Positions 3-12,214 of a stretch of DNA of 12,214 bases are shown one piece after another. Location: the NCBI GenBank assembly GCA_026225435.1, contig JAMFST010000036.1, forward strand, positions 1 through 12,214. The letters run 5' to 3'. Positions within the stretch are counted from its first letter, which is position 1; each line of letters opens with the position of its first letter. The DNA comes from Labilithrix luteola (lineage in GTDB: Bacteria; Myxococcota_A; Polyangia; Polyangiales; Polyangiaceae). The position numbers and the translations under genes are program-made. A model generated the notes under the pieces. It searched no databases, was not told where the DNA came from, and saw only the letters and a program-made list of their open reading frames with translations.

Positions 3-398
3 GCGATCACCAAGCAGAGCCTCGAGGGGCTCAACGAGAACATCAAGATCCGCATGGCGGCCAACGCGGCCGCGGCGCCCGTGGCGGCCCCTGCTCCGGC
101 GGAGATCGTCGCCGCGGCGACCGAGACCAAGGTCGAGGAGGCCGTGCCGATGATCCCGGCGCTCACCGCCGAGGGGCAGATGCCGATCGAGACCGCGCCG
201 GCGCCCGAGCCCGCAGCTGCGAAGACCGCGGCCATCGTCCCCGCGGCGCCCGCGCCGGTCGTCTACAAGAAGGCCGATCCGAGCGCGCTGGCGGCGGAGG
301 TGGCGCGCGAGGTGAGCAAGAGCCTGCCGCCCGCCGTGTACATCGCCATCGGGATGGTCATCGGCATCGCCGCGACCTTCCTCTTCATGCACCGCTGA
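3..398 (+). CDS. C-terminal part of an Ala/Pro-rich protein with a C-terminal membrane anchor (5' end outside window)
   Basis: The reading frame is open from the window edge, so the gene begins outside; 131 residues are visible. The ATG at 54 is an internal methionine because the frame upstream (reading ITKQSLEGLNENIKIR) is open and looks like normal protein. The middle (about residues 20-90) is low-complexity, rich in Ala, Pro and Glu, and probably disordered. Residues 110-129 (AVYIAIGMVIGIAATFLFM) form one hydrophobic helix, followed only by His-Arg, so the protein looks tail-anchored in the membrane with its bulk in the cytoplasm. I do not recognise a family, and no function can be given. 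It converges with coxE with no spacer at all: its stop ends at 398 and the coxE stop starts at 399. The rest of the island is functionally unrelated, so this gene probably marks its edge. Confidence 0.7.
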   Translation, partial: AITKQSLEGLNENIKIRMAANAAAAPVAAPAPAEIVAAATETKVEEAVPMIPALTAEGQMPIETAPAPEPAAAKTAAIVPAAPAPVVYKKADPSALAAEVAREVSKSLPPAVYIAIGMVIGIAATFLFMHR

Positions 399-1615
399 TC
401 AGGCCGGTCTGCGCCTCGGTGCTTCGGCGCCGAGGATGCGGGCGAGGTCCTCGAGGCTGTCGAGATGGTGGACGGTGCGAAAGTCGTCCACGTGGGCGAG
501 CATCGCCTTCACCCCGGCCGCGCGCGGCTCGAAGCCCTCGTAGCGCAGCAGCGGGTTGAGCCAGATGAGCCGGCGGCACGACTTCTGGAGCCGCTCCACC
601 TCGTGCTCCAGTGGAGCGGCGTCGCCTTGCTCGAGCCCGTCGGTGATGAGCAGCACGACCGCCCCCTGCCCGAGCACGCGTCGTGACCAGACCTTGTTGA
701 AGGTGCGCAGGCTCTCGCCGATGCGGGTGCCGCCGGACCAGTCGGTGACCTCGCGCCCCACCGCCGCCAGCGCCTCGTCGACGTCGCGCTCGCGCAGCCA
801 GCGGGTGACGTTGGTGAGGCGGGTGCCGAAGACGAACGAGCTGACTTTCGGCCGGCTGCGACTGAGCGCGTGGAGGAAGTGCAGCACCATGCGGCTGTAG
901 CGCTCCATCGAGCCGGAGATGTCGCAGATGGCGACGAGCGGCGGCGGTCGTTCGCGCGGTCCACGCCGACGCAACACGATGGCGTCGCCGCCGGAGCGCA
1001 ACGAGGCGGCGAGCGTACGGCGGAAGTCGAGCTTCGCGCCCCGCGCATCGGGCTGCAGTCGGCGCGTCTTCACCGTCGCCCGGGGGAGCGGCATCCGCTG
1101 GATCGCCTCGCGCGCGCGGGCCACCTCGTCGGCCGTCATCTTCTCGAAGTCGCGCGCCCGGAGCGTGTGCTCCGCCGACGCGGTCATCGTCACGTCGTAC
1201 TCGATGCGCTTCTCGCGCGGCGCGTCCGGATCGAGCGGAGGAGGCGGCTTCGGCTTCTGCAGCGCCTCGCGCGCGCGTCGCGAGCCCGGGTCGGGGCGGT
1301 TCCGGGCATCGGGGATCGACGAGCGAGACACCAGCGCTCCCAGCGCCTTGCTCATGGCGAACGGATCGCGGAAGAACAGATCGAAGACCTCGTCGAAGAG
1401 CAGCAGCTCTTCACGCCGGCGGACGAAGCAGGCGGCGAGCGCCCAGTAGACGTCCCACTTGTTCTCCACGCCGACCGCCTCCACCGCGCGGGTGGCCTCG
1501 ACGATCTGCCCGCTGCCGATGGGCAACCCGGCCGAGCGCAACGCGCGACCGAAGTGCGTGAGGTTGGCGCCCAGGTTCCCCTTGTAGCGCGCGCGTTCCA
1601 GCTGGAGATCCGGCT

Positions 1616-1619
<4 letters not shown>
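399..1619 (-). CDS. coxE: CoxE-like VWA-domain protein (Mo-hydroxylase maturation)
   Basis: 406 residues. CoxE proteins work with the CoxD AAA+ ATPase in post-translational maturation of the Mo/Cu or Mo active site of CODH-type enzymes in the cytoplasm. The N-terminal half carries the CoxE-type signature with a CFVRRREELLLFDEVFDLFF stretch at about 64-83, then a Pro/Lys-rich linker (about 122-134). The C-terminal half is a von Willebrand A domain with a complete metal site: DISGS at 233-237, the Thr of SGGTRIG at about 298, and Asp327 in LITDGLE. The start is a GTG that overlaps the coxD stop (GTGA, 1616-1619), so the two are translationally coupled, as expected for a MoxR/VWA pair. It is the last gene of the form II operon. 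The family call is secure; the exact substrate is inferred from context. Confidence 0.9.
414..435 (+). terminator. Stem-loop with UUCG tetraloop just past the first gene
   Basis: A 9-bp stem (414-422 with 427-435, one G-U wobble at 420/429) closes a TTCG loop, giving the very stable C(UUCG)G hairpin when read on the + strand. It starts 15 bases after the stop codon of the + strand gene, where a terminator would lie. No T-run follows, so it is not a classical intrinsic terminator. It also lies inside the last codons of coxE on the other strand, so codon content alone could have produced it. Confidence 0.35.
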
Positions 1620-3356: not shown

Positions 3357-5736
3357 TCACTCCGCGTCCGCGGAAGTTCCTTTGGCTTTGGCTTCCTGGA
3401 TCGCGCGCCACACCTTCTGCGGGCTCGCGGGCATGCTCATGTCGCGCACGCCGAGCGACCACAGCGCGTCGAGCACGCTGTTGATGACCGCCGGCGGGAC
3501 GCCGATGGCGCCGCACTCGCCGACGCCCTTCACGCCCAGCGGGTTGTGGGTGCACGGCGTGGCGTGGTTGCCCACCTTGAAGAAGGGGAAATCGCCCGCG
3601 CGCGGCATCGTGTAGTTCATGAACGAGGCGGTCAGCAGCTGCCCGTCCTCGTCGTAGGCCGCCTCCTCGAGGAGCGCCTGGCCGATCCCCTGGGCGAGCC
3701 CGCCCTGGATCTGCCCGTCGACGATCATCGGGTTGACGATCGTGCCCACGTCGTCGGCCACCGCCACGTCGACCACCTTGACCACGCCGGTCTCGGGATC
3801 GATCTCCACCTCGACGATGTGCGTGCCGCCCGGGAAGGTGAAGTTGAGCGGATCGTAGTACGCCTGCTCCTCGAGCCCCGGCTCCAGCGTCAGCAGCGGG
3901 TAGTTGTGCGGCACGTAGGCGGCGAAGGCGATCTCGCCGAAGGCCTTGGCTTTGTCGGTCCCCTTGACGGTGAAGTTGCCGTCCTTGAACTCGATGTCGG
4001 CGACGTCCGCCTCGAGCATGTGGGCGGCGATCTTCTTCCCCTTCTCGATCACCTTGGCGGTCGCCTTGATGATCGCCGAGCCGCCGACTGGCAACGAGCG
4101 CGAGCCGTAGCTGCCCATGCCGAAAGCCGTCTTGGCCGTGTCACCGTGCGAGTGCTCGATGTTCTCCATGGGGATGCCGAACTGGTCGGCGACGATCTGG
4201 GCGAAGGTCGTCTCGTGCCCCTGCCCGTGGCTATGGGTGCCGGTGAAGAGCGTGACCGAGCCGGTCGGGTTCACCCGCACGGTCGCCTGCTCGAAGAGAC
4301 CGGCGCGGGCGCCGAGCGATCCGGCGACCGCCGACGGCGCGATCCCGCAGGCCTCGACGTAGGTGGAGAAGCCGAGGCCGCGGAGCTTGCCGCGCCCCAA
4401 CGCCTCCTTGCGACGAGCCTCGAAGCCCTTGTAGTCGATGGCCTCGAGCGCCATGTCGAGCGTCGCCTGGAAGTTCCCCGTGTCGTACTGGAACGCGAGC
4501 GGCGTCTGGTACGGGAACATGTCGGTGGTGATCATGTTGCGCCGGCGGATCTCGATGCTGTCCATGTTCATCTCGCGCGCCGCCTTCTCCACCAGGCGCT
4601 CGAGCAGGTACGTCGCCTCGGGGCGACCGGCACCGCGGTAGGCGTCGACCGGCGTGGTGTGCGTGAAGTACGCCTTCACGTTCACGTGGATCGCCGGAGT
4701 TTTGTACACGCCTCCGAGCAGCGGCGCGTAGAGGTAGGTGGCCACCGACGGCGCGAAGAGCTGGAGGTACGCCCCCATGTTCGCGTGGGTGTCGAAGTCC
4801 ATCGCCAGGAAGTCCCCCTCCTTGGAGAGCGCCACCCGACCGGTGGAGACGTGGTCACGCCCGTGCGCGTCGGTCACGAAGGACTCGAAGCGCTCGCAGG
4901 TCCACTTGACCGGTCGGCCGACCTTCTGCGCAGCCCAGGTGACGAGCACCTCCTCCGCGTAGTGGAAGATCTTCGAGCCGAAGCCACCGCCGACGTCCGG
5001 TGCCACGACGCGCAGCTTGTGCTCGGGCACGTGCAGCGTGAAGGCCGCCATCAAGAGGCGAATGAGGTGCGGGTTCTGCGAGGTGGTCCACAGCGTGTAG
5101 TCGCCGGTCCCCGAGTCGTACTCGCCGATGGCCGCGCGCGGCTCCATCGCGTTGGGCACCAGGCGGTTGTTGGTGATCTCGATGGTGACGATCTTGTGCG
5201 CCTTGGCGAAGCCCGCGTCGGTCGCCGCGCGATCGCCGATCTCCCAGTCGTAACAGAGGTTCCCCGGCGCCTGCTCCCACACGTTGGGCGCGCCTTCCGC
5301 GCGAGCCGCGGCGATGCTGGCGACGACCGGCAGCATGTCGTAGTCGACGACGCAGGCCTGGGCGGCCGCCTTGGCCTGATCCTTCGTGTCGGCCACCACC
5401 ATGAGGATCGAGTCGCCGACGTGACGGATGGTGTCGGTCACCAGCATCGGGTGCGGCGGCTCCACCATCGGGCCGGTCTTGCCGGTCACCAGCCAGCCGC
5501 AGGGGAGCGTGCCGATCTTGTCGGCCTCGACGTCCTTGCCGAGGAAGATGGCGACCACGCCGGGCATCTGCTCGGCGGCGCTGATGTCGATGCCGGTGAT
5601 GCGCGCATGCGCCACCTGCGACCGCAAAATGTACGCGTAGGTCTGGTTCGGCCTCTTCAGGTCGTCGACGTACTGCCCCTTGCCGGTGAGAAAACGCTGA
5701 TCCTCCTTGCGGCGGATCGGCTGGCCCATCTTGGCT

Positions 5737-5744
<8 letters not shown>
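3357..5744 (-). CDS. coxL: Form II CoxL-like molybdenum-binding large subunit (CODH-like aldehyde oxidase/xanthine dehydrogenase family)
   Basis: 795 residues, full length. It binds Moco and carries the active site. The motif AYRGAGR (residues 368-374; 4623-4643) replaces the form I AYRCSFR, so this is the form II type, for which CO oxidation is not established. Other hallmarks are DVGGGFGSK (about 250-258, Moco binding), [16 protein letters not shown], and KGVGE near the C-terminus with the catalytic Glu at about 743. The start is the ATG at 5744: it has a strong AAGGAG 7 bases upstream, overlaps the coxS stop by 8 bases, and begins [20 protein letters not shown] as homologues do. The frame stays open up to 5789, but that adds an Arg-rich leader without support. 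The substrate is unknown; a purine, an aldehyde or another heterocycle is as likely as CO. Confidence 0.93.
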
Positions 5745-6249
<505 letters not shown>

Positions 6250-6396: not shown

Positions 6397-7415
6397 TCAG
6401 CCGCCGATGCCGCGCATCGACACGTCAGCCGCGCTGCTCTCGGTGCAGCCCTTGAAGACGTCGCCATCGGGCTTCATCGTCCAGGCGTCGGCGATGGCCG
6501 CGGCCACGCCACCTGCGTCGCCGGAGCGCGCGATGTCGGCGGCGGAGAGCCCGTCGTTGGTCGCCAGGCACGGACGGAGCATCCCGTCGCTGGCGACGCG
6601 CAGGCGGTCGCAGCCCTTGCAGTAGGTGTCGCTCGTGCCGGTGATGAAGCCGACCTTCTTGCTCGGATCGTGGCGGGCGACGAGGTAGCGCGCCGGGCCG
6701 CGATCCTTCTCGCGCTGCGCGTCTCCCGGCAGCAGGAGATCGCCGAGCTGCGCGCGCATCTCCTCGGCGGTGACCACGCGGTCCTTCAGCTTCGCCCCCT
6801 CGCCGATGGCCATCACCTCGAGCAGGCGCGGCACGATCCCGCGCTCCCAGGACCAGCGCACCAGCGACTCGAGCTCGACGTCGTTCTCGTCCTTCACGAC
6901 GACCGCGTTCAACTTCAGCTCGTCGAAGCCAACCGCGATGGCCGCGTCGATCCCGCGCAGGACGCCCGCGAGCTTGCCGCCACGGGTCATGCGGTTGAAG
7001 CGCGCGGCGTCGAGGCTGTCGAGCGACAGATTCACGCGGCGCAGACCCGCTGCCCGCAGCGGAGCGGCGAGCTTCTCGAGCCGGGTGGCGTTGGTGGTCA
7101 GGGCGATGTCGTCGAGCCCGACGGTGCCGAGGTACTCGACGACCCGCACGATGTCCTGATGCAGGAGCGGCTCGCCGCCGGTGAGCCGCACGCGCCGTAC
7201 ACCGGCCGCGACCAACCCCTGCACCATCGTCTTCCAGGCGGCGAAGTCGACCGCTCGTCCACGTAACCGTCCTGCTTGTGCGGCCGGCAGTACACGCAGG
7301 CGAGATCGCACCGATCGGTCAGCGAGAGGCGAACCGAGCGCGGCGGGGTGGCCGGCGCCGGGCGTGCGGCGCGGCGCGGCTGAAGGACGACGAGAGAGCT
7401 GGCGTGAGCAGACAT
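6397..7415 (-). CDS. moaA: GTP 3',8-cyclase MoaA, interrupted by an apparent one-base frameshift
   Basis: Radical SAM enzyme for the first step of Moco synthesis (GTP to 3',8-cyclo-GTP). The N-terminal 55 residues lie in one frame (ATG at 7415) and hold [20 protein letters not shown] with the SAM cluster cysteines C36, C40 and C43 (CX3CX2C). From about 7254 downward the protein continues in another frame as [14 protein letters not shown], with TGGEPLL, the second cluster CKGCDRLR ... RPC, and the C-terminal GG (MRGIGG). Together they give about 340 residues, the normal MoaA size, so only one base seems to be missing near 7252-7256. As written, no single frame encodes both clusters and the gene is inactive. 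A sequencing error is possible. It diverges from moaB across a 90-base gap. Confidence 0.85.
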
Positions 7416-7505
7416 GAGCCGGGAAGTGCGTCGAGCCTACTAAAGAGACGGCCAAGCGCCAGCCCGCGCAGAAAATGTCCGCGAGTCGACGTAAGCTGCG
7501 CGCCG
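7416..7505. promoter_or_regulatory. Divergent intergenic region between moaA and moaB
   Basis: 90 bases between two divergent starts, so promoters for both directions are expected here. A small AT-richer patch (7438-7447, CTACTAAAGA) gives a TTTAGT-like -10 for the moaA direction, but no matching -35 was found. No operator, riboswitch fold or Moco-riboswitch-like structure was recognised by eye. Confidence 0.3.
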
Positions 7506-8012
7506 ATGGTTGCTTCCGCGTCCACGCCTGGCCGAACGTCCCCTCGCGTCATCACCGTCACCGTCAGCGACACCCGCACGGCGGCCGACGACACGTCCGG
7601 TCGCGCGCTCGCCGAGGAGCTGGCCGCCTTCACGCGTGTGCGTCACGCCATCGTCGCGGACGAGCCGGAGAGGCTCCTCGACCTCGTCAAGGCGATGATG
7701 AAGCACGACGAGGCCGACGCCATCGTCTTCACCGGTGGCACCGGCATCGCCCCGCGCGACCGCACCGTCGAGGCGCTCGAGTCGATCTTCGACAAGCGAC
7801 TGGAGGGGTTCGGCGAGGCGTTCCGGCGGCTCTCCTGGGAGCAGATCGGTCCGCGCTCGGTGCTCTCGCGCGCCACCGCTGGGTCGGTCGGCAAGCACCT
7901 GGTGTTCTGCCTGCCGGGGAGCGAGAAGGCGGTGCGCCTCGGCGCCCACGAGATCATCGCGCCCATCCTCGGGCACGCCGTCGATCTGCTGCACGGCAGG
8001 ACTGGCCATTGA
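7506..8012 (+). CDS. moaB: MoaB/Mog-type molybdopterin adenylyltransferase-family protein
   Basis: 168 residues from the ATG at 7506. MoaB/MogA-fold proteins bind molybdopterin and adenylylate it before metal insertion. Seen in the sequence: the SDTRT...DDTSG segment (21-32), the molybdopterin-binding loop FTGGTGIAPRDRTVEA (75-90), and LPGSEKAVRLG (136-146), which together span the whole MoCF_biosynth domain. The frame is open upstream to 7278, but the homologous protein begins just before SPRVITVTVSD, and the upstream part runs antisense to moaA, so the shorter start is chosen. There is no clear Shine-Dalgarno sequence. It is translationally coupled to moaD. In organisms without MogA, MoaB is taken to do the adenylylation; I infer the same here. 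Confidence 0.9.
   Translation: MVASASTPGRTSPRVITVTVSDTRTAADDTSGRALAEELAAFTRVRHAIVADEPERLLDLVKAMMKHDEADAIVFTGGTGIAPRDRTVEALESIFDKRLEGFGEAFRRLSWEQIGPRSVLSRATAGSVGKHLVFCLPGSEKAVRLGAHEIIAPILGHAVDLLHGRTGH
7998..8001 (+). promoter_or_regulatory. Ribosome binding site of moaD
   Basis: AGGA within GGCAGGA at the end of moaB, 7 bases before the TTG at 8009. It supports the unusual TTG start and coupled translation with moaB. Confidence 0.5.
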
Positions 8013-8257
8013 AGATCGCCGTCCTGTACTTCGCCGCCGTGCGCGAGCTGGTCGGGCACGACGAGGAGTCGCTCGAGCTGCCGGCGGGTGTGGTGACGAT
8101 CGCCGATCTCGCGGTTCACCTTCCTCTCGTGCACCCGGTGCTCTCCGGGCGCCTGGCCGCGGTGCGCTTCGCCCGCAACGAGGAGTTCGCTCGCGGCGCG
8201 GACGCTCTTGCGGACGGCGACACGGTCGCGTTGATCCCGCCCGTCGCTGGCGGCTGA
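8009..8257 (+). CDS. moaD: MoaD, sulfur-carrier small subunit of molybdopterin synthase (TTG start)
   Basis: 82 residues. MoaD has a ubiquitin-like fold and carries the thiocarboxylate that MoaE uses to build the dithiolene of molybdopterin. The N-terminus MKIAVLYFAAVRELVG, the segment FARNEEFARGADALADGDTVALIPPVAGG (in two parts), and the essential C-terminal Gly-Gly are all typical. The start is TTG at 8009, overlapping the moaB stop as TTGA (8009-8012), with AGGA 7 bases upstream. No ATG or GTG lies near that would preserve the N-terminal beta strand. Its partner moaE is close by but on the opposite strand. The last codons form the left arm of an inverted repeat. Confidence 0.9.
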   Translation: MKIAVLYFAAVRELVGHDEESLELPAGVVTIADLAVHLPLVHPVLSGRLAAVRFARNEEFARGADALADGDTVALIPPVAGG

Positions 8258-8285
8258 GCACCGGCGCGCAAATGCCAGCGCGGGC
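8239..8285. repeat. Inverted repeat (12 bp arms, one bulge) across the moaD stop
   Basis: Left arm 8239-8251 (GCCCGTCGCTGGC) pairs with right arm 8274-8285 (GCCAGCGCGGGC) over 12 positions with one bulged T at 8244. The 22-base loop contains the moaD stop. The transcript could fold into a strong hairpin that ends moaB-moaD, although no T-run follows. The right arm already belongs to the BON-domain remnant, so the repeat spans a join between unrelated sequences. Confidence 0.5.
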
Positions 8286-8372
8286 GAGAAGCAGGTGATC
8301 GACAACCTGGCCCGCAGCGCGGCCGGCGCGAACCGGGTCGACGATCAGCTCGACATCGCGCCGAGCAAGTGA
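8259..8372 (+). pseudogene. C-terminal remnant of a BON-domain protein
   Basis: The frame ending at the TGA at 8370-8372 reads NASAGEKQVIDNLARSAAGA then NRVDDQLDIAPSK. This is the end of a BON domain: the EKQ...ARS helix, then the AGANRVDDQLDI strand, as in OsmY-type periplasmic or lipid-binding proteins. Nothing upstream in this frame continues the domain. Within about 15 bases the frame runs into moaD, which occupies a different frame with a complete protein. There is no start codon or ribosome binding site, so this is a 5'-truncated fragment and probably not translated. The likely truncation point is about 8259-8272. The BON assignment rests on about 30 residues. Confidence 0.55.
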
Positions 8373-8394
8373 GCCGCCGCAGTCACTCGTTCGA

Positions 8395-8892
8395 TCACTC
8401 GGGGGGGTGATGCTCGTCGTGCGCGTGGTGCTCGTGGCCGTCGGGGGAGCAGCGCGCGTCGACCCAGCCGACCCACTCGGCGCCATCCGGCCCGTACTCG
8501 CGCTTCCAGATGGGCACACGCGACTTGATACGGTCGATGAGCTCGCGGCATGCCTTGAACGCCTCGCCCCGGTGGGGGGCGCTCGCGGCACAGATGACCG
8601 CCGCGTCGCCCACGCCGAGGGAGCCCGTGCGGTGGGCGACCGCCAGCTGCACGCCGGGGATCTCCCCCTCGAGCTCGGCGACGATGGCGGCCATCTCGCG
8701 GCGCGCCATCCCGTCGTACGCGGAGTAGTCGAGCCGGGTCACGACGCGGCCGTCGCTGTGGTCGCGCACGACGCCCACGAAGGTGGCGATGCCGCCGGCT
8801 TCGGGGCGCTGCACCTGGTCCACGACCTCGTCGAGCGACAGCTTCGTGTCACGCAGCACGACGCGCGCGGTCACGGGAGACGCGGTGTCCAT
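8395..8892 (-). CDS. moaE: MoaE, catalytic large subunit of molybdopterin synthase, with His-rich tail
   Basis: 165 residues. MoaE binds precursor Z (cPMP) and transfers sulfur from MoaD thiocarboxylate to make molybdopterin. Conserved features: GGIATFVGVVRDHS (33-46, with Arg43), HRTGSLGVGDAAVICA (87-102), APHRGEAF (105-112), and the catalytic lysines K123 and K130 within IKSRVPIWKREYGPDG. The start at 8892 gives the usual short N-terminus; the frame is open further up, but that stretch overlaps an unrelated remnant. The last 15 residues (DGHEHHAHDEHHPPE) include six histidines, a possible metal-binding tail not needed for the fold. A C7 run lies in the last codons. It converges with moaB-moaD. 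Confidence 0.92.
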   Translation of the reverse strand: MDTASPVTARVVLRDTKLSLDEVVDQVQRPEAGGIATFVGVVRDHSDGRVVTRLDYSAYDGMARREMAAIVAELEGEIPGVQLAVAHRTGSLGVGDAAVICAASAPHRGEAFKACRELIDRIKSRVPIWKREYGPDGAEWVGWVDARCSPDGHEHHAHDEHHPPE

Positions 8893-8926
8893 GAGCGCAA
8901 TGTAGAGCCTGTGCACGCAGGAGCAC

Positions 8927-9173
8927 AGGCCGCCGTCGGTCGACATCGAGGGCGGCGGCGCGGATCCCGACCTGCTCGCGGCGAAGATCGAGGCCATCAA
9001 GCGCACCGCGCGGAGCTCCGGTGCCGATCTGTTCGTCAACGCCCGCACGGACGTCTACCTGCGGGGGCTGGACGCCGGCGAAGGCCTGCTGGCAAACGAC
9101 CGGCGGCTCGGACCCACTCCTGGAGAGGGCGATGGCCTACGGCCAGCTCCAGCAGCTCTTCACTCCGGGTTGA
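8927..9173 (+). pseudogene. Decayed isocitrate lyase/PEP mutase-family gene
   Basis: Three pieces of this family appear in order. At 8927-8952 RPPSVDIEGG resembles the early active-site strand (PVSVDIEGGY in relatives). It joins directly to ADPDLLAAKIEAIKRTARSS and GADLFVNARTDVYLRGL (about 8954-9070), which normally lies some 35-40 residues later. After about 9086 the frame changes, and TTGGSDPLLERAMAYGQLQQ then LFTPG (ending at the TGA 9171-9173) resembles the family C-terminus (weaker match). A stop at 8903-8905 closes the frame upstream and no proper start exists. The gene thus has at least two internal deletions and a lost 5' end. It converges on mocA, overlapping its stop. The family call is firm for the middle piece. 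Confidence 0.5.
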
Positions 9174-9777
9174 GCGCGGCGTAGTCCTCCGGGAGGTCCA
9201 CATCGAGCAGCACGTGGTCGCTCGGCATGGCGAAGGTGCGCACCAGATCGGCGTTGCGAGAGATGAACTGGCGGCAGCCGAAGTCGCCGCCTCGTTCGCA
9301 GATCGTCGCGAGGCTCACGCGTGGCAGGACGATCGGGTTCCCGCGGGCGCCGCCGTACGTCGGGACATGCACGTGAGCGGGGTCCGAGAGGAAGGCGTGC
9401 GCGATGAGCTCGAGATCGAACGGCGTCAACGCCGGTTGGTCGCCGAGGCACACCATCACCCCCTCCGACGGAGCGGCGAGCGCTCCCAGCGCCGCGTTCA
9501 CCGTGGTCATCTGCCCTTCCTCGTAGCGCGGGTTGCGCACGAAGCGGACAGGGAGCCCGTCGAGCGCGGCCTCCACCGCGTCCGCGTCGTGGCCGGTCGC
9601 CACGACGATCTCGGCGAACGGCAAGCAAGCGACGGCCGACACCGCGTGGCGCACCAGCGGCGCCCCGCGCAAGGGCAGGAGCAGCTTGTTCGCCTCTCCC
9701 ATGCGCCGCGAGAGACCCGCGGCGAGCACCACGGCGGTCAGCCGTGCTGCGTCAGGCGCCTGGCTTCGCAGCCGCAT
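9160..9777 (-). CDS. mocA: MocA-like molybdenum cofactor cytidylyltransferase
   Basis: 205 residues. It transfers CMP from CTP to Mo-molybdopterin, giving the dinucleotide cofactor (MCD) used by xanthine oxidase-family enzymes such as CoxL. Seen: the nucleotide-binding loop LAAGLSRRMG (18-27) with Lys31 (the AAG-S-R form is typical of the CTP enzyme rather than the GTP enzyme MobA), the metal-binding CLGDQPAL (110-117), and ARGNPIVLPR (144-153). The start ATG at 9777 lies 26 bases inside the end of the xdhC-like gene, so the two are coupled. The context, directly behind CoxF/XdhC and a CoxL, supports MCD rather than MGD synthesis. The 3' end meets a decayed gene on the other strand. Confidence 0.9.
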   Translation of the reverse strand: MRLRSQAPDAARLTAVVLAAGLSRRMGEANKLLLPLRGAPLVRHAVSAVACLPFAEIVVATGHDADAVEAALDGLPVRFVRNPRYEEGQMTTVNAALGALAAPSEGVMVCLGDQPALTPFDLELIAHAFLSDPAHVHVPTYGGARGNPIVLPRVSLATICERGGDFGCRQFISRNADLVRTFAMPSDHVLLDVDLPEDYAALNPE

Positions 9778-10678
9778 GGCAGCAGGACGCCTTCTTCTTC
9801 TCCCCGAGCTTGACGAGGGTCCCCTCGGACACCACCGCCGGCACGAGCGCGGCGGCGCGGGTCGCCTCCGGCCTTCGCACCTGTCCGTGGCGCCGGCGCG
9901 TGCTGACGATCTCCGCCATGACCGAGAGCGCGACCTCCTCCGGCTGCCGGCCGCCGAGGTCGATCCCCGCCGGCGCCTGCACCCGCGCCAGATCCGCGTC
10001 GCTGACGTTGCGCTCCCGGAGCGAGGCGAACACCTGGTCGCGCCGCTTCTTGCTGGTGACGAAGCCGACGTACGGCAGCTGCAGCTGCAAGGCTGCCTCG
10101 AGCGACTCCTCGTCGAAGATCCCGTGCGTCGAGACCACCGCGAAGGCGTTGGTCGCGTCGGTCGGCGGGAGCGCCTTGAAGCTGCGCACCGTGTCGATCT
10201 CCGCGCCCATCTGCGGCCGGTCGCTGAGATCGACCGAGGTGACCGCGTAGCCCATCATCTTGCCGAGGTTGCACAGCGCGCGCGCCACCGGCGAGTTGCC
10301 GAAGACCAGGAGCCGTGGCTGCGCGAGGAAGGGCTCGATGTAGATCTCGAGCTCGCCGCCGCTGTAGCACTCCATGCGGTGGACGCTGCGGCCGGTGCCG
10401 TCGTCCCCGCTCGGCACGCTCTGGTCCGGCGTGATGCGCAAGAGGCGGCACTCGCCATCGAGGAGCGCGGTCTCGGCGGTGCGCCGCACGATCGGCTCGG
10501 CGCAGCTGCCGCCGATCCAGCCGACGAGGAGCCCCGCATCGGTGAGCACGGCCTTGTCGCCGGGCTTGGCCGACGTGGGGGCCACTGCGCGCACCACGGT
10601 GGCCATGACGAACGGCTCGCCCCGCGCGCGGAGATCCGCGGCGGCGGCAAGAGGATCGACGGACGGTGAATACTGCAT
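9752..10678 (-). CDS. coxF: CoxF/XdhC-type Moco insertion and protection factor
   Basis: 308 residues. XdhC-family proteins bind MCD/MPT, help its sulfuration and deliver it into the large subunit. The N-terminal XdhC/CoxI domain has the hallmark GGSCAEP at 56-62. The C-terminal Rossmann-like domain runs from RLLVFGNSPVARAL (about 122-135) to AGIDLGGRQPEEVALSVMAE (about 250-270). A Lys-rich tail ends KASCCHAAAKPGA with an adjacent Cys pair. The start is the ATG at 10678, preceded by AAGGGAG. The frame is open much further up (to 11302), but that overlaps coxL coding and has no similarity. It follows the form I coxL by 14 bases and precedes mocA with a 26-base overlap, so all three form one transcript. 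Confidence 0.9.
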   Translation of the reverse strand: MQYSPSVDPLAAAADLRARGEPFVMATVVRAVAPTSAKPGDKAVLTDAGLLVGWIGGSCAEPIVRRTAETALLDGECRLLRITPDQSVPSGDDGTGRSVHRMECYSGGELEIYIEPFLAQPRLLVFGNSPVARALCNLGKMMGYAVTSVDLSDRPQMGAEIDTVRSFKALPPTDATNAFAVVSTHGIFDEESLEAALQLQLPYVGFVTSKKRRDQVFASLRERNVSDADLARVQAPAGIDLGGRQPEEVALSVMAEIVSTRRRHGQVRRPEATRAAALVPAVVSEGTLVKLGEKKKASCCHAAAKPGA

Positions 10679-10686
10679 GATCGTCT

Positions 10687-10693
10687 CTCCCTT
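10687..10693 (-). promoter_or_regulatory. Ribosome binding site of the coxF/xdhC-like gene
   Basis: AAGGGAG on the minus strand, overlapping the coxL stop (TGA at 10693-10695) and 8 bases before the ATG at 10678. It settles the start against the much longer open frame. Confidence 0.7.
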
Positions 10694-12213
10694 CAGTCGG
10701 TGACGCCAGCGGCGCGCAGAAGGCGCCAGACCTTCTGCGGGGTGATCGGGATGTCGATGTGGCGGACGCCGAGGTGCCAGAGCGCATCGACGACCGCGTT
10801 GGCGATGGCCGGCGGCGCGCCCACGGTCGGCGACTCCCCGACCCCCTTGGCGCCGAGCGGATGATGCGGCGACGGGGTGATCGTCTTGCCCAGCTCCCAC
10901 TTCGGGCTCTCGACCGCGGTCGGCAGCAGGTAGTCCGCGAAGGTCCCGGTCAGGTTCTGCCCGTTCTCGTCGTAGACGATCTCCTCGTACATCGCGGGGG
11001 CAAGGCCCATCGTCAGGCCGCCCTCGATCTGCCCCTCGACGATCATCGGGTTGATGATGTGCCCGCAGTCGTCGACGGCCACGAAGCGGCGCACCTTGAT
11101 GTCGCCCGTCCCCTTGTCGATGTCGACGACGCAGATGTAGCTGCCGAAGGGGAACGTGAGGTTCGGCGGATCGTAATAGTCGGTCGCCTCGAGCCCGGCC
11201 TCCATCCCCTGCGGGTGGTCGGTGTAGGCCGCGAAGGCGATCTGCTGGATGGTCTTGTGCCGCTCCGGCGAGCCCTTCACCTGGAAGCGGTCGATGCTCC
11301 ACTCGAGGTCGTCCTCGCTCGCCTCGAGCAGGTAGGCGGCGATCTTCTTCGCCTTCGCCTTGATCTTGCGCGCGGCCATGGCGGCGGCAGCCCCCGCGGT
11401 GGGGGTCGAGCGGCTGGCGTAGGTGCCGAGACCGTAGGGCGCCGTGTCGGTGTCCCCTTCTTCGATCTGGATGTCCGACGCCGGTAGCCCGAGCTCCTCG
11501 GCGAGGATCTGCGCGTAGGTCGTCTCGTGCCCCTGCCCTTGCGACTTGGTGCCGAAGCGCGCCATCGCCTTGCCGGTCGGGTGGATGCGGATCTCCGCCG
11601 AGTCGAACATCTTGATGCCGAGGATGTCGTAGTCCTTCGACGGCCCCGCGCCGACCACCTCGGTGAAGCTGGAGATGCCGATCCCCATCAATTCGCCGCG
11701 CGCGCGCTTCTCGAGCTGCTCCTTGCGGAGCGCGCGGTAGTCGATCATCTCCATCGCCTTCTCGAGCGCCGCTTGATAGTTGCCGCTGTCGTAGTCCCAG
11801 CCGGTCGGAGATTTGTACGGGAACTGGTCGGGACGGATGAAGTTCTTCATCCGGAAGTCGGCCGGGTCCTCGTCGAGGTGGTGCGCCATGATGTCGGTCA
11901 TGCGCTCGATCATGTGGACCGCCTCGGTCACGCGGAACGAGCAGCGGTAGGCGACGCCGCCCACGGGCTTGGTCGTGTAGACGCCGTCGACGGTGACGTG
12001 CGCCGCCTTCATGTCGTACGAGCCGGTGCAGATGCTGTAGAGCCCCGCGGGGAACTTCGACGGGTTGGCCGCGCCGTCCGCCGCGAGGCGCTCGTGCAGC
12101 CGCAGACTCTGCGAGACCGGCACCTCGGCGTCCGCGTCGCCGTGCACCAGCAGCGTGGGCGGCGCGGCGGGGCCGACATGCGTGATCGGGCTCGCCTCCG
12201 CCGCGAGGTCGGC
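10693..12213 (-). CDS. coxL: Form I CoxL (aerobic CO dehydrogenase large subunit), C-terminal part only, fused to a hydrolase fragment; open at window edge
   Basis: From about 12066 down, this is a form I CODH large subunit: FPAGLYSICTGSYDM, then AYRCSFR (11932-11952), whose Cys binds the copper of the Mo-Cu site, GWDYDSGNY, VGAGPSK, TKSQGQGHETTYAQI, GLGTYASRSTPTAG, and KGVGES with the catalytic Glu (codon 10834-10836). The spacing from that Cys to the Glu is about that of known form I CoxL. About the first 345 residues of CoxL, including the GGGFG Moco-binding region, are missing. In their place the frame continues without a stop into an alpha/beta hydrolase segment and out of the window. 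A GTG at 12145-12147 is not a convincing start, since it splits the hydrolase motif. The product as written cannot bind Moco normally. Confidence 0.85.
   Translation of the reverse strand, partial: ADLAAEASPITHVGPAAPPTLLVHGDADAEVPVSQSLRLHERLAADGAANPSKFPAGLYSICTGSYDMKAAHVTVDGVYTTKPVGGVAYRCSFRVTEAVHMIERMTDIMAHHLDEDPADFRMKNFIRPDQFPYKSPTGWDYDSGNYQAALEKAMEMIDYRALRKEQLEKRARGELMGIGISSFTEVVGAGPSKDYDILGIKMFDSAEIRIHPTGKAMARFGTKSQGQGHETTYAQILAEELGLPASDIQIEEGDTDTAPYGLGTYASRSTPTAGAAAAMAARKIKAKAKKIAAYLLEASEDDLEWSIDRFQVKGSPERHKTIQQIAFAAYTDHPQGMEAGLEATDYYDPPNLTFPFGSYICVVDIDKGTGDIKVRRFVAVDDCGHIINPMIVEGQIEGGLTMGLAPAMYEEIVYDENGQNLTGTFADYLLPTAVESPKWELGKTITPSPHHPLGAKGVGESPTVGAPPAIANAVVDALWHLGVRHIDIPITPQKVWRLLRAAGVTD
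12073..12213 (-). other. Alpha/beta hydrolase C-terminal segment joined in frame to CoxL
   Basis: About 47 residues read EASPITHVGPAAPPTLLVHG then DADAEVPVSQSLRLHERLAA. This is the region around the acid residue of the catalytic triad in esterases of the BD-FAE/dienelactone-hydrolase type (ASPITHV, LLVHGDAD..VP..QS..L). It has no counterpart in CoxL. The change to CoxL sequence falls at about 12064-12078, within ADGAANPSK. The catalytic Ser region would lie beyond the window, and the final His region is absent, because CoxL begins where it should follow. It could be a real gene fusion by deletion or an assembly chimera. Confidence 0.65.
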
Positions 12214-12214
12214 C

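Follow-up and report, generated by a model that had tools for sequence, protein, structure and literature searches.

Contig C1131, which is the entire window (the whole stretch of DNA analysed here, 12,214 bases, with position 12214 also being the contig end), finishes in an open reading frame in which pieces of two unrelated genes, an alpha/beta hydrolase and a form I coxL (the large subunit of CO dehydrogenase), are read as one. The retained coxL half is undecayed, and coxL runs without interruption in the relatives inspected. Judged from the sequence, a chimeric read or an assembly mis-join very probably explains this hydrolase-coxL junction; an artefact as such is a shade more probable still once the sub-case of a hydrolase piece derived from another organism is counted in. 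We infer that the join has its origin in the tube or the computer and not in the cell, and that coxL is probably intact in the organism.

The source draft genome consists of 1502 contigs totalling 6.8 Mb, with a completeness of 80.48 and a contamination of 2.84. From Pfam and TIGR matches and from translations, the gene content of C1131 is that of a molybdenum-hydroxylase and molybdenum-cofactor cluster, with the following features.

6397-9777: moaA-like (minus), MoCF_biosynth/mog-like (plus), ThiS/moaD-like (plus), moaE (minus) and mocA-like cytidylyltransferase (minus) genes
9752..10687, minus strand: xdhC/coxI-like maturation gene directly after coxL (PF13478, PF02625)
10693..12072, minus strand: C-terminal ~56% of a form I coxL, undamaged, stop at 10693-10695 (TIGR02416, 1n5w_B)
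12064..12084, minus strand: join zone, AADGAAN in the window versus AADAAAN in intact CoxL (codon-by-codon identity)
12073..12213, minus strand: alpha/beta hydrolase C-terminal-region fragment (BD-FAE / S9-like), 47 residues (PF20434 and hydrolase relatives)

C1131 carries two coxL-type large subunits, a complete one at 3357-5789 and the form I piece at 10693-12072, both on the minus strand, with the molybdenum-cofactor genes at 6397-9777 lying between the two cox regions. The complete gene is flanked by coxS upstream and coxM downstream and carries AYRGAGR, which we take to be form II / CoxL-like. At the left contig end, a truncated frame (3-398, plus strand) shows 46% over 52 aa to the coxG-like protein of locus L033, has no match in Pfam, and abuts the stop of a convergent coxE (399-1619, minus strand) with zero gap.

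The frame that contains the join runs on the minus strand from 12213 to 10693 and its translation gives 506 aa without an internal stop; the first 47 residues come from the C-terminal region of an alpha/beta hydrolase, and the second half of form I CoxL follows. In Pfam, residues 2-43 match BD-FAE (PF20434, E 2.4e-8, profile 174-215 of 215), after which come MoCoBD_1 (profile 179-244 of 244) and a complete MoCoBD_2 (profile 1-283 of 283, E 1.9e-90). An earlier note on this DNA had reported just such a stop-free, in-frame run from a hydrolase into form I CoxL, and this observation is correct because the Pfam, TIGR02416 and 1n5w_B matches cover both parts. The frame matches model positions 311-769 of 770 of TIGR02416 (aerobic CO dehydrogenase large subunit) with 769 bits, short of the family cut-off of 991 for the full-length protein, and aligns with residues 336-802 of the CO dehydrogenase large chain 1n5w_B, the coxL piece corresponding to about residue 341-345 onward. 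VAYRCSFR, presumably the form I active-site loop signature (AYRCSFR), is present in the translation and aligned to the same residues of 1n5w_B. The N-terminal half is missing from the frame: the hammerhead domain PF01315 is unmatched, and MoCoBD_1 sets in only at profile position 179. What is retained of coxL exhibits neither decay nor frame damage and reaches 94% identity with full-length CoxL.

The hydrolase fragment runs off the contig end, its upstream part being outside the contig, and its own continuation is absent past the join. The BD-FAE domain is consequently incomplete in the frame, and the cut falls ahead of a histidine-containing region into which the hydrolase relatives continue and which we assume to have a catalytic role. 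Taken alone, the tail (53 aa, P0001) matches PF20434 at E 4.1e-10 and PF00326 at E 1.5e-6, both exceeding the curated cut-off, and hydrolases from other genomes at about 33-62% identity. When its own bin was searched with the tail at E 1e-5, only the self-match was recovered. Seven other BD-FAE matches exist in the bin, all in open frames of 350-596 aa, and a full hydrolase relative found three other matches there, none at a contig end, a search that a short cut piece could escape. Of these three, we rejected the one on C1365 (L010) as the source of the tail because, with 38% identity to it (E 8.5e-4), it is a distant relative. An overlap of C1131 with another contig was likewise rejected: its last 315 bases match themselves and a 31-base, 90% stretch of C453 (E 1.5e-4), which we take as a chance GC-rich likeness; the frame there looks, from its translation, like a flagellar rod/hook protein (L004).

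The breakpoint itself is ambiguous within 12064-12084; its simplest placement is 12072/12073, which leaves about 142 bases before the contig end. Reading downward, similarity to coxL may set in at 12084 (AAD) and is clear once 12072 is reached; the hydrolase sequence may extend as far as 12064. Across this zone the commonest reading of intact relatives is SDCGAADAAANPSKFPAG, that of the window HERLAADGAANPSKFPAG. Our codon alignment relied on 72 of 85 loci, those with >0.60 DNA identity downstream (71 distinct ones, L019 and L033 being one contig). In these 72 loci, codons agree well at 12072 and downward, in part at 12076-12084 (AAD) and poorly beyond that, with a mean DNA identity of 0.78 over 60 downstream codons versus 0.36 (maximum 0.43) over codons -48 to -10. 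The G encoded at 12075-12073 in the window occurs at that place in none of them. A comparable L..AG(V/A) is found in hydrolase relatives at the place of the join, followed in L112 by AN. The breakpoint therefore lies inside a short shared GC-rich stretch. This microhomology is no more than suggestive, and we rejected it as proof: what is shared amounts approximately to AAD and AAN, separated by a codon that differs. Alignments starting at query residue 26 (64 of the 120 homologues listed) give an appearance of coxL similarity on the hydrolase side; we rejected this as chance extension because amino-acid agreement there is mostly about zero in the 72 loci, with isolated residues at 0.14-0.76.

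No relative that we inspected has the same arrangement. The best alignment reaches query residues 1-25 in 0 of the 120 homologues listed from at least 8000 scored, and the six listed proteins shorter than 650 aa start within ordinary CoxL sequence. Three of 59 genomes (58 relatives and the own one) match at E 1e-80, the own genome included, the other two in 812-aa frames. A search of 377 genomes of the phylum (own included), in most of which four candidates were scored, gave six matches at E 1e-180, again including the own genome; the other five are in 781-812-aa frames, and two of these are the matches already seen in the 59-genome search. Among the best 80 coxL loci of at least 440 relatives from named genomes, the N-terminal half is located directly upstream in 78, with at least 300 of 350 residues matched, and in 78 the upstream frame is open, and in frame with coxL, for at least 313 codons; the remaining two (L067 and L097) are cut by the start of the locus after 64 and 160 codons of still open coxL. 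A stop inside the 340 upstream codons is present in 20 of the 80 loci, the nearest lying 313-339 codons upstream, and we take these stops to mark the starts of shorter CoxL proteins. At E 0.01, a hydrolase match was found in none of these 80 loci (756,124 bases, coxL included), and the same two queries recovered the window and nine of nine hydrolase control loci. The search for the same hydrolase-CoxL architecture elsewhere, which the earlier note had recommended, thus yielded none among the 120 listed homologues, the 59 and 377 genomes, and the 80 loci. In the Myxococcales MAG of locus L033, translations give the order coxE, coxG, coxM, coxS, coxL, xdhC/coxI; the gene following coxL in the window is therefore in its usual place, and it is the upstream side that departs.

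In the 59-genome search at E 1e-80, form I CoxL was matched in none of the 36 other genomes of the same family (G001-G036), and the matches within the order belong to another family (G040, G049, G397). Close relatives are found in MAGs titled Acidobacteriota, Gemmatimonadota and Chloroflexi. This distribution may reflect horizontal spread or a misbinned contig.

We envisage that the end of C1131 was extended by a chimeric read, a chimeric read pair or an assembler mis-join, that this extension carried ~142 bases from a high-GC hydrolase gene with no relation to coxL, and that the piece became attached in the middle of coxL across the short GC-rich similarity. The coxL of the organism would then, in all likelihood, run on into its usual N-terminal half, and coxS and coxM would probably lie upstream of it. 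An artefact is favoured because the join lies ~142 bases from the contig end in a short shared stretch, the arrangement is absent from the relatives examined, and the retained coxL half is undecayed. A random join would fall this near to either contig end in about 2% of cases, a figure that is after the fact since the finding was picked partly for its end position. Several observations run against an artefact. The join is in frame, which chance would give one time in three, and both genes are on the same strand. The third-position GC is equal across the join (0.958 and 0.956), as fits one genome, but it fits any similar high-GC organism as well. The shared stretch is short, imperfect (AADG versus AADA) and below the usual assembly k-mer, and a plain de Bruijn mis-join is for that reason less natural than a chimeric read. 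Finally, the other coxL half was not found on the remaining contigs of the bin, which is what a real loss would lead to as well. Local assembly errors and chimeras are named as limits of metagenome assemblies in PMC7111523, where missing read or pair support is given as the sign of such errors and scaffolds of two joined organisms are described as rare in the authors' experience. In PMC12108083, a possible misassembly is suggested where alignment assigns the two regions of a gene to different sources and the overlap between them is small.

The missing half of coxL was sought in the bin. TIGR02416 revealed no other form I coxL piece, its matches being the second coxL of C1131 and weak ones on two other contigs. 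The N-terminal half of the L033 CoxL found only distant molybdenum hydroxylases, the best (34%) again being the second coxL of C1131, and the L033 coxM recovered no close form I coxM, with matches of 40% and 32%, the better one to the other coxM of C1131. These absences do not show loss because the bin is only 80.5% complete, and the absence of the coxL N-terminal half elsewhere in the bin is a weak sign of it. The earlier note's conditional claim, that with a real join the N-terminal half of the form I CODH is lost from the strain, finds no support: the bin is 80.5% complete, the break sits where the contig stops, and this half is in frame in 78 of 80 relatives, the other two being cut by the contig start. 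C1131 remains evidence that the bin contains a form I coxL.

A fusion formed within the cells of this lineage, in which the 5' part of a hydrolase became linked with the catalytic half of form I CoxL, would be an unlikely explanation. Its principal version, a recent deletion or rearrangement in the strain that joined the hydrolase to coxL, removed the N-terminal half, and left the form I CODH non-functional, is marginally more doubtful; such an event would probably also have removed coxS and coxM. It draws on the shared strand, the in-frame join and a third-position GC that is the same to either side of the join; in addition, neither a close form I coxM nor the coxL N-terminal half was found elsewhere in the bin. 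However, none of 80 relatives has a hydrolase match near coxL, so that the loci seen offer no ancestor for a simple neighbour deletion, and we rejected a deletion between neighbouring genes on this ground, the controls of the search having worked. Moreover, the remaining coxL half and the xdhC/coxI-like gene next to it are undecayed, the join sits at a contig end, and absence from a bin that is 80.5% complete counts for little. Where the earlier note had listed a deletion fusion, a recombination product or a misassembly, our data favour the artefact, keep a real deletion as a minor rival and lend no support to a working fusion.

That the hydrolase piece stems from another organism in the sample, a special case of the artefact, is very improbable. 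The tail matches only itself in its own bin at E 1e-5, and its GC content is 0.79 versus 0.67 in the coxL part; yet the third-position GC is equal, the own contigs compared (0.68-0.72 GC) fall between both parts, 142 bases are too few for assigning an organism, and the bin is incomplete. That the cell produces a true bifunctional hydrolase-CoxL protein has a single open frame in its favour but is scarcely credible, given a CoxL that lacks about 340 N-terminal residues compared with the solved enzyme (and positions 1-310 of the 770 in the model), a hydrolase cut before its histidine-containing region, and an architecture seen in no homologue among those inspected; the view of the earlier note that both partners are cut inside their domains, and that a working bifunctional enzyme is unlikely, is upheld by the partial CoxL model and the partial BD-FAE.

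We claim no novelty for the hydrolase-coxL join. Were the fusion to exist in the cell, it would signify that CO oxidation had been lost very recently or, with much lower probability, that a new protein uses the C-terminal Moco domain of CoxL. The join would then represent a disrupted member of a known gene family, a new domain arrangement being far less probable. With a chimeric read or mis-join as the preferred reading, caution is due, as the output of a gene caller would include a hydrolase-CODH fusion and imply a lost form I CODH, both of which would probably be wrong.

Compared with known systems, the window resembles form I CoxL (TIGR02416; 1n5w_B) in its C-terminal ~457 residues, in VAYRCSFR and in the xdhC/coxI-like gene that follows, and the 120 listed homologues are 86-94% identical to it; it differs in lacking the N-terminal ~340 residues, with a hydrolase piece in their place. 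From the BD-FAE family (PF20434) it has the final 42 positions of the profile, among them the HGDAD...VP region, but neither anything earlier, which is outside the contig, nor the continuation afterwards. The chimeric genes and contigs described in PMC7111523 and PMC12108083 rest on reads, coverage or taxonomic placement, whereas the short side of the window is recognised by its sequence only; like them, it combines two regions with separate relatives and a small shared overlap.
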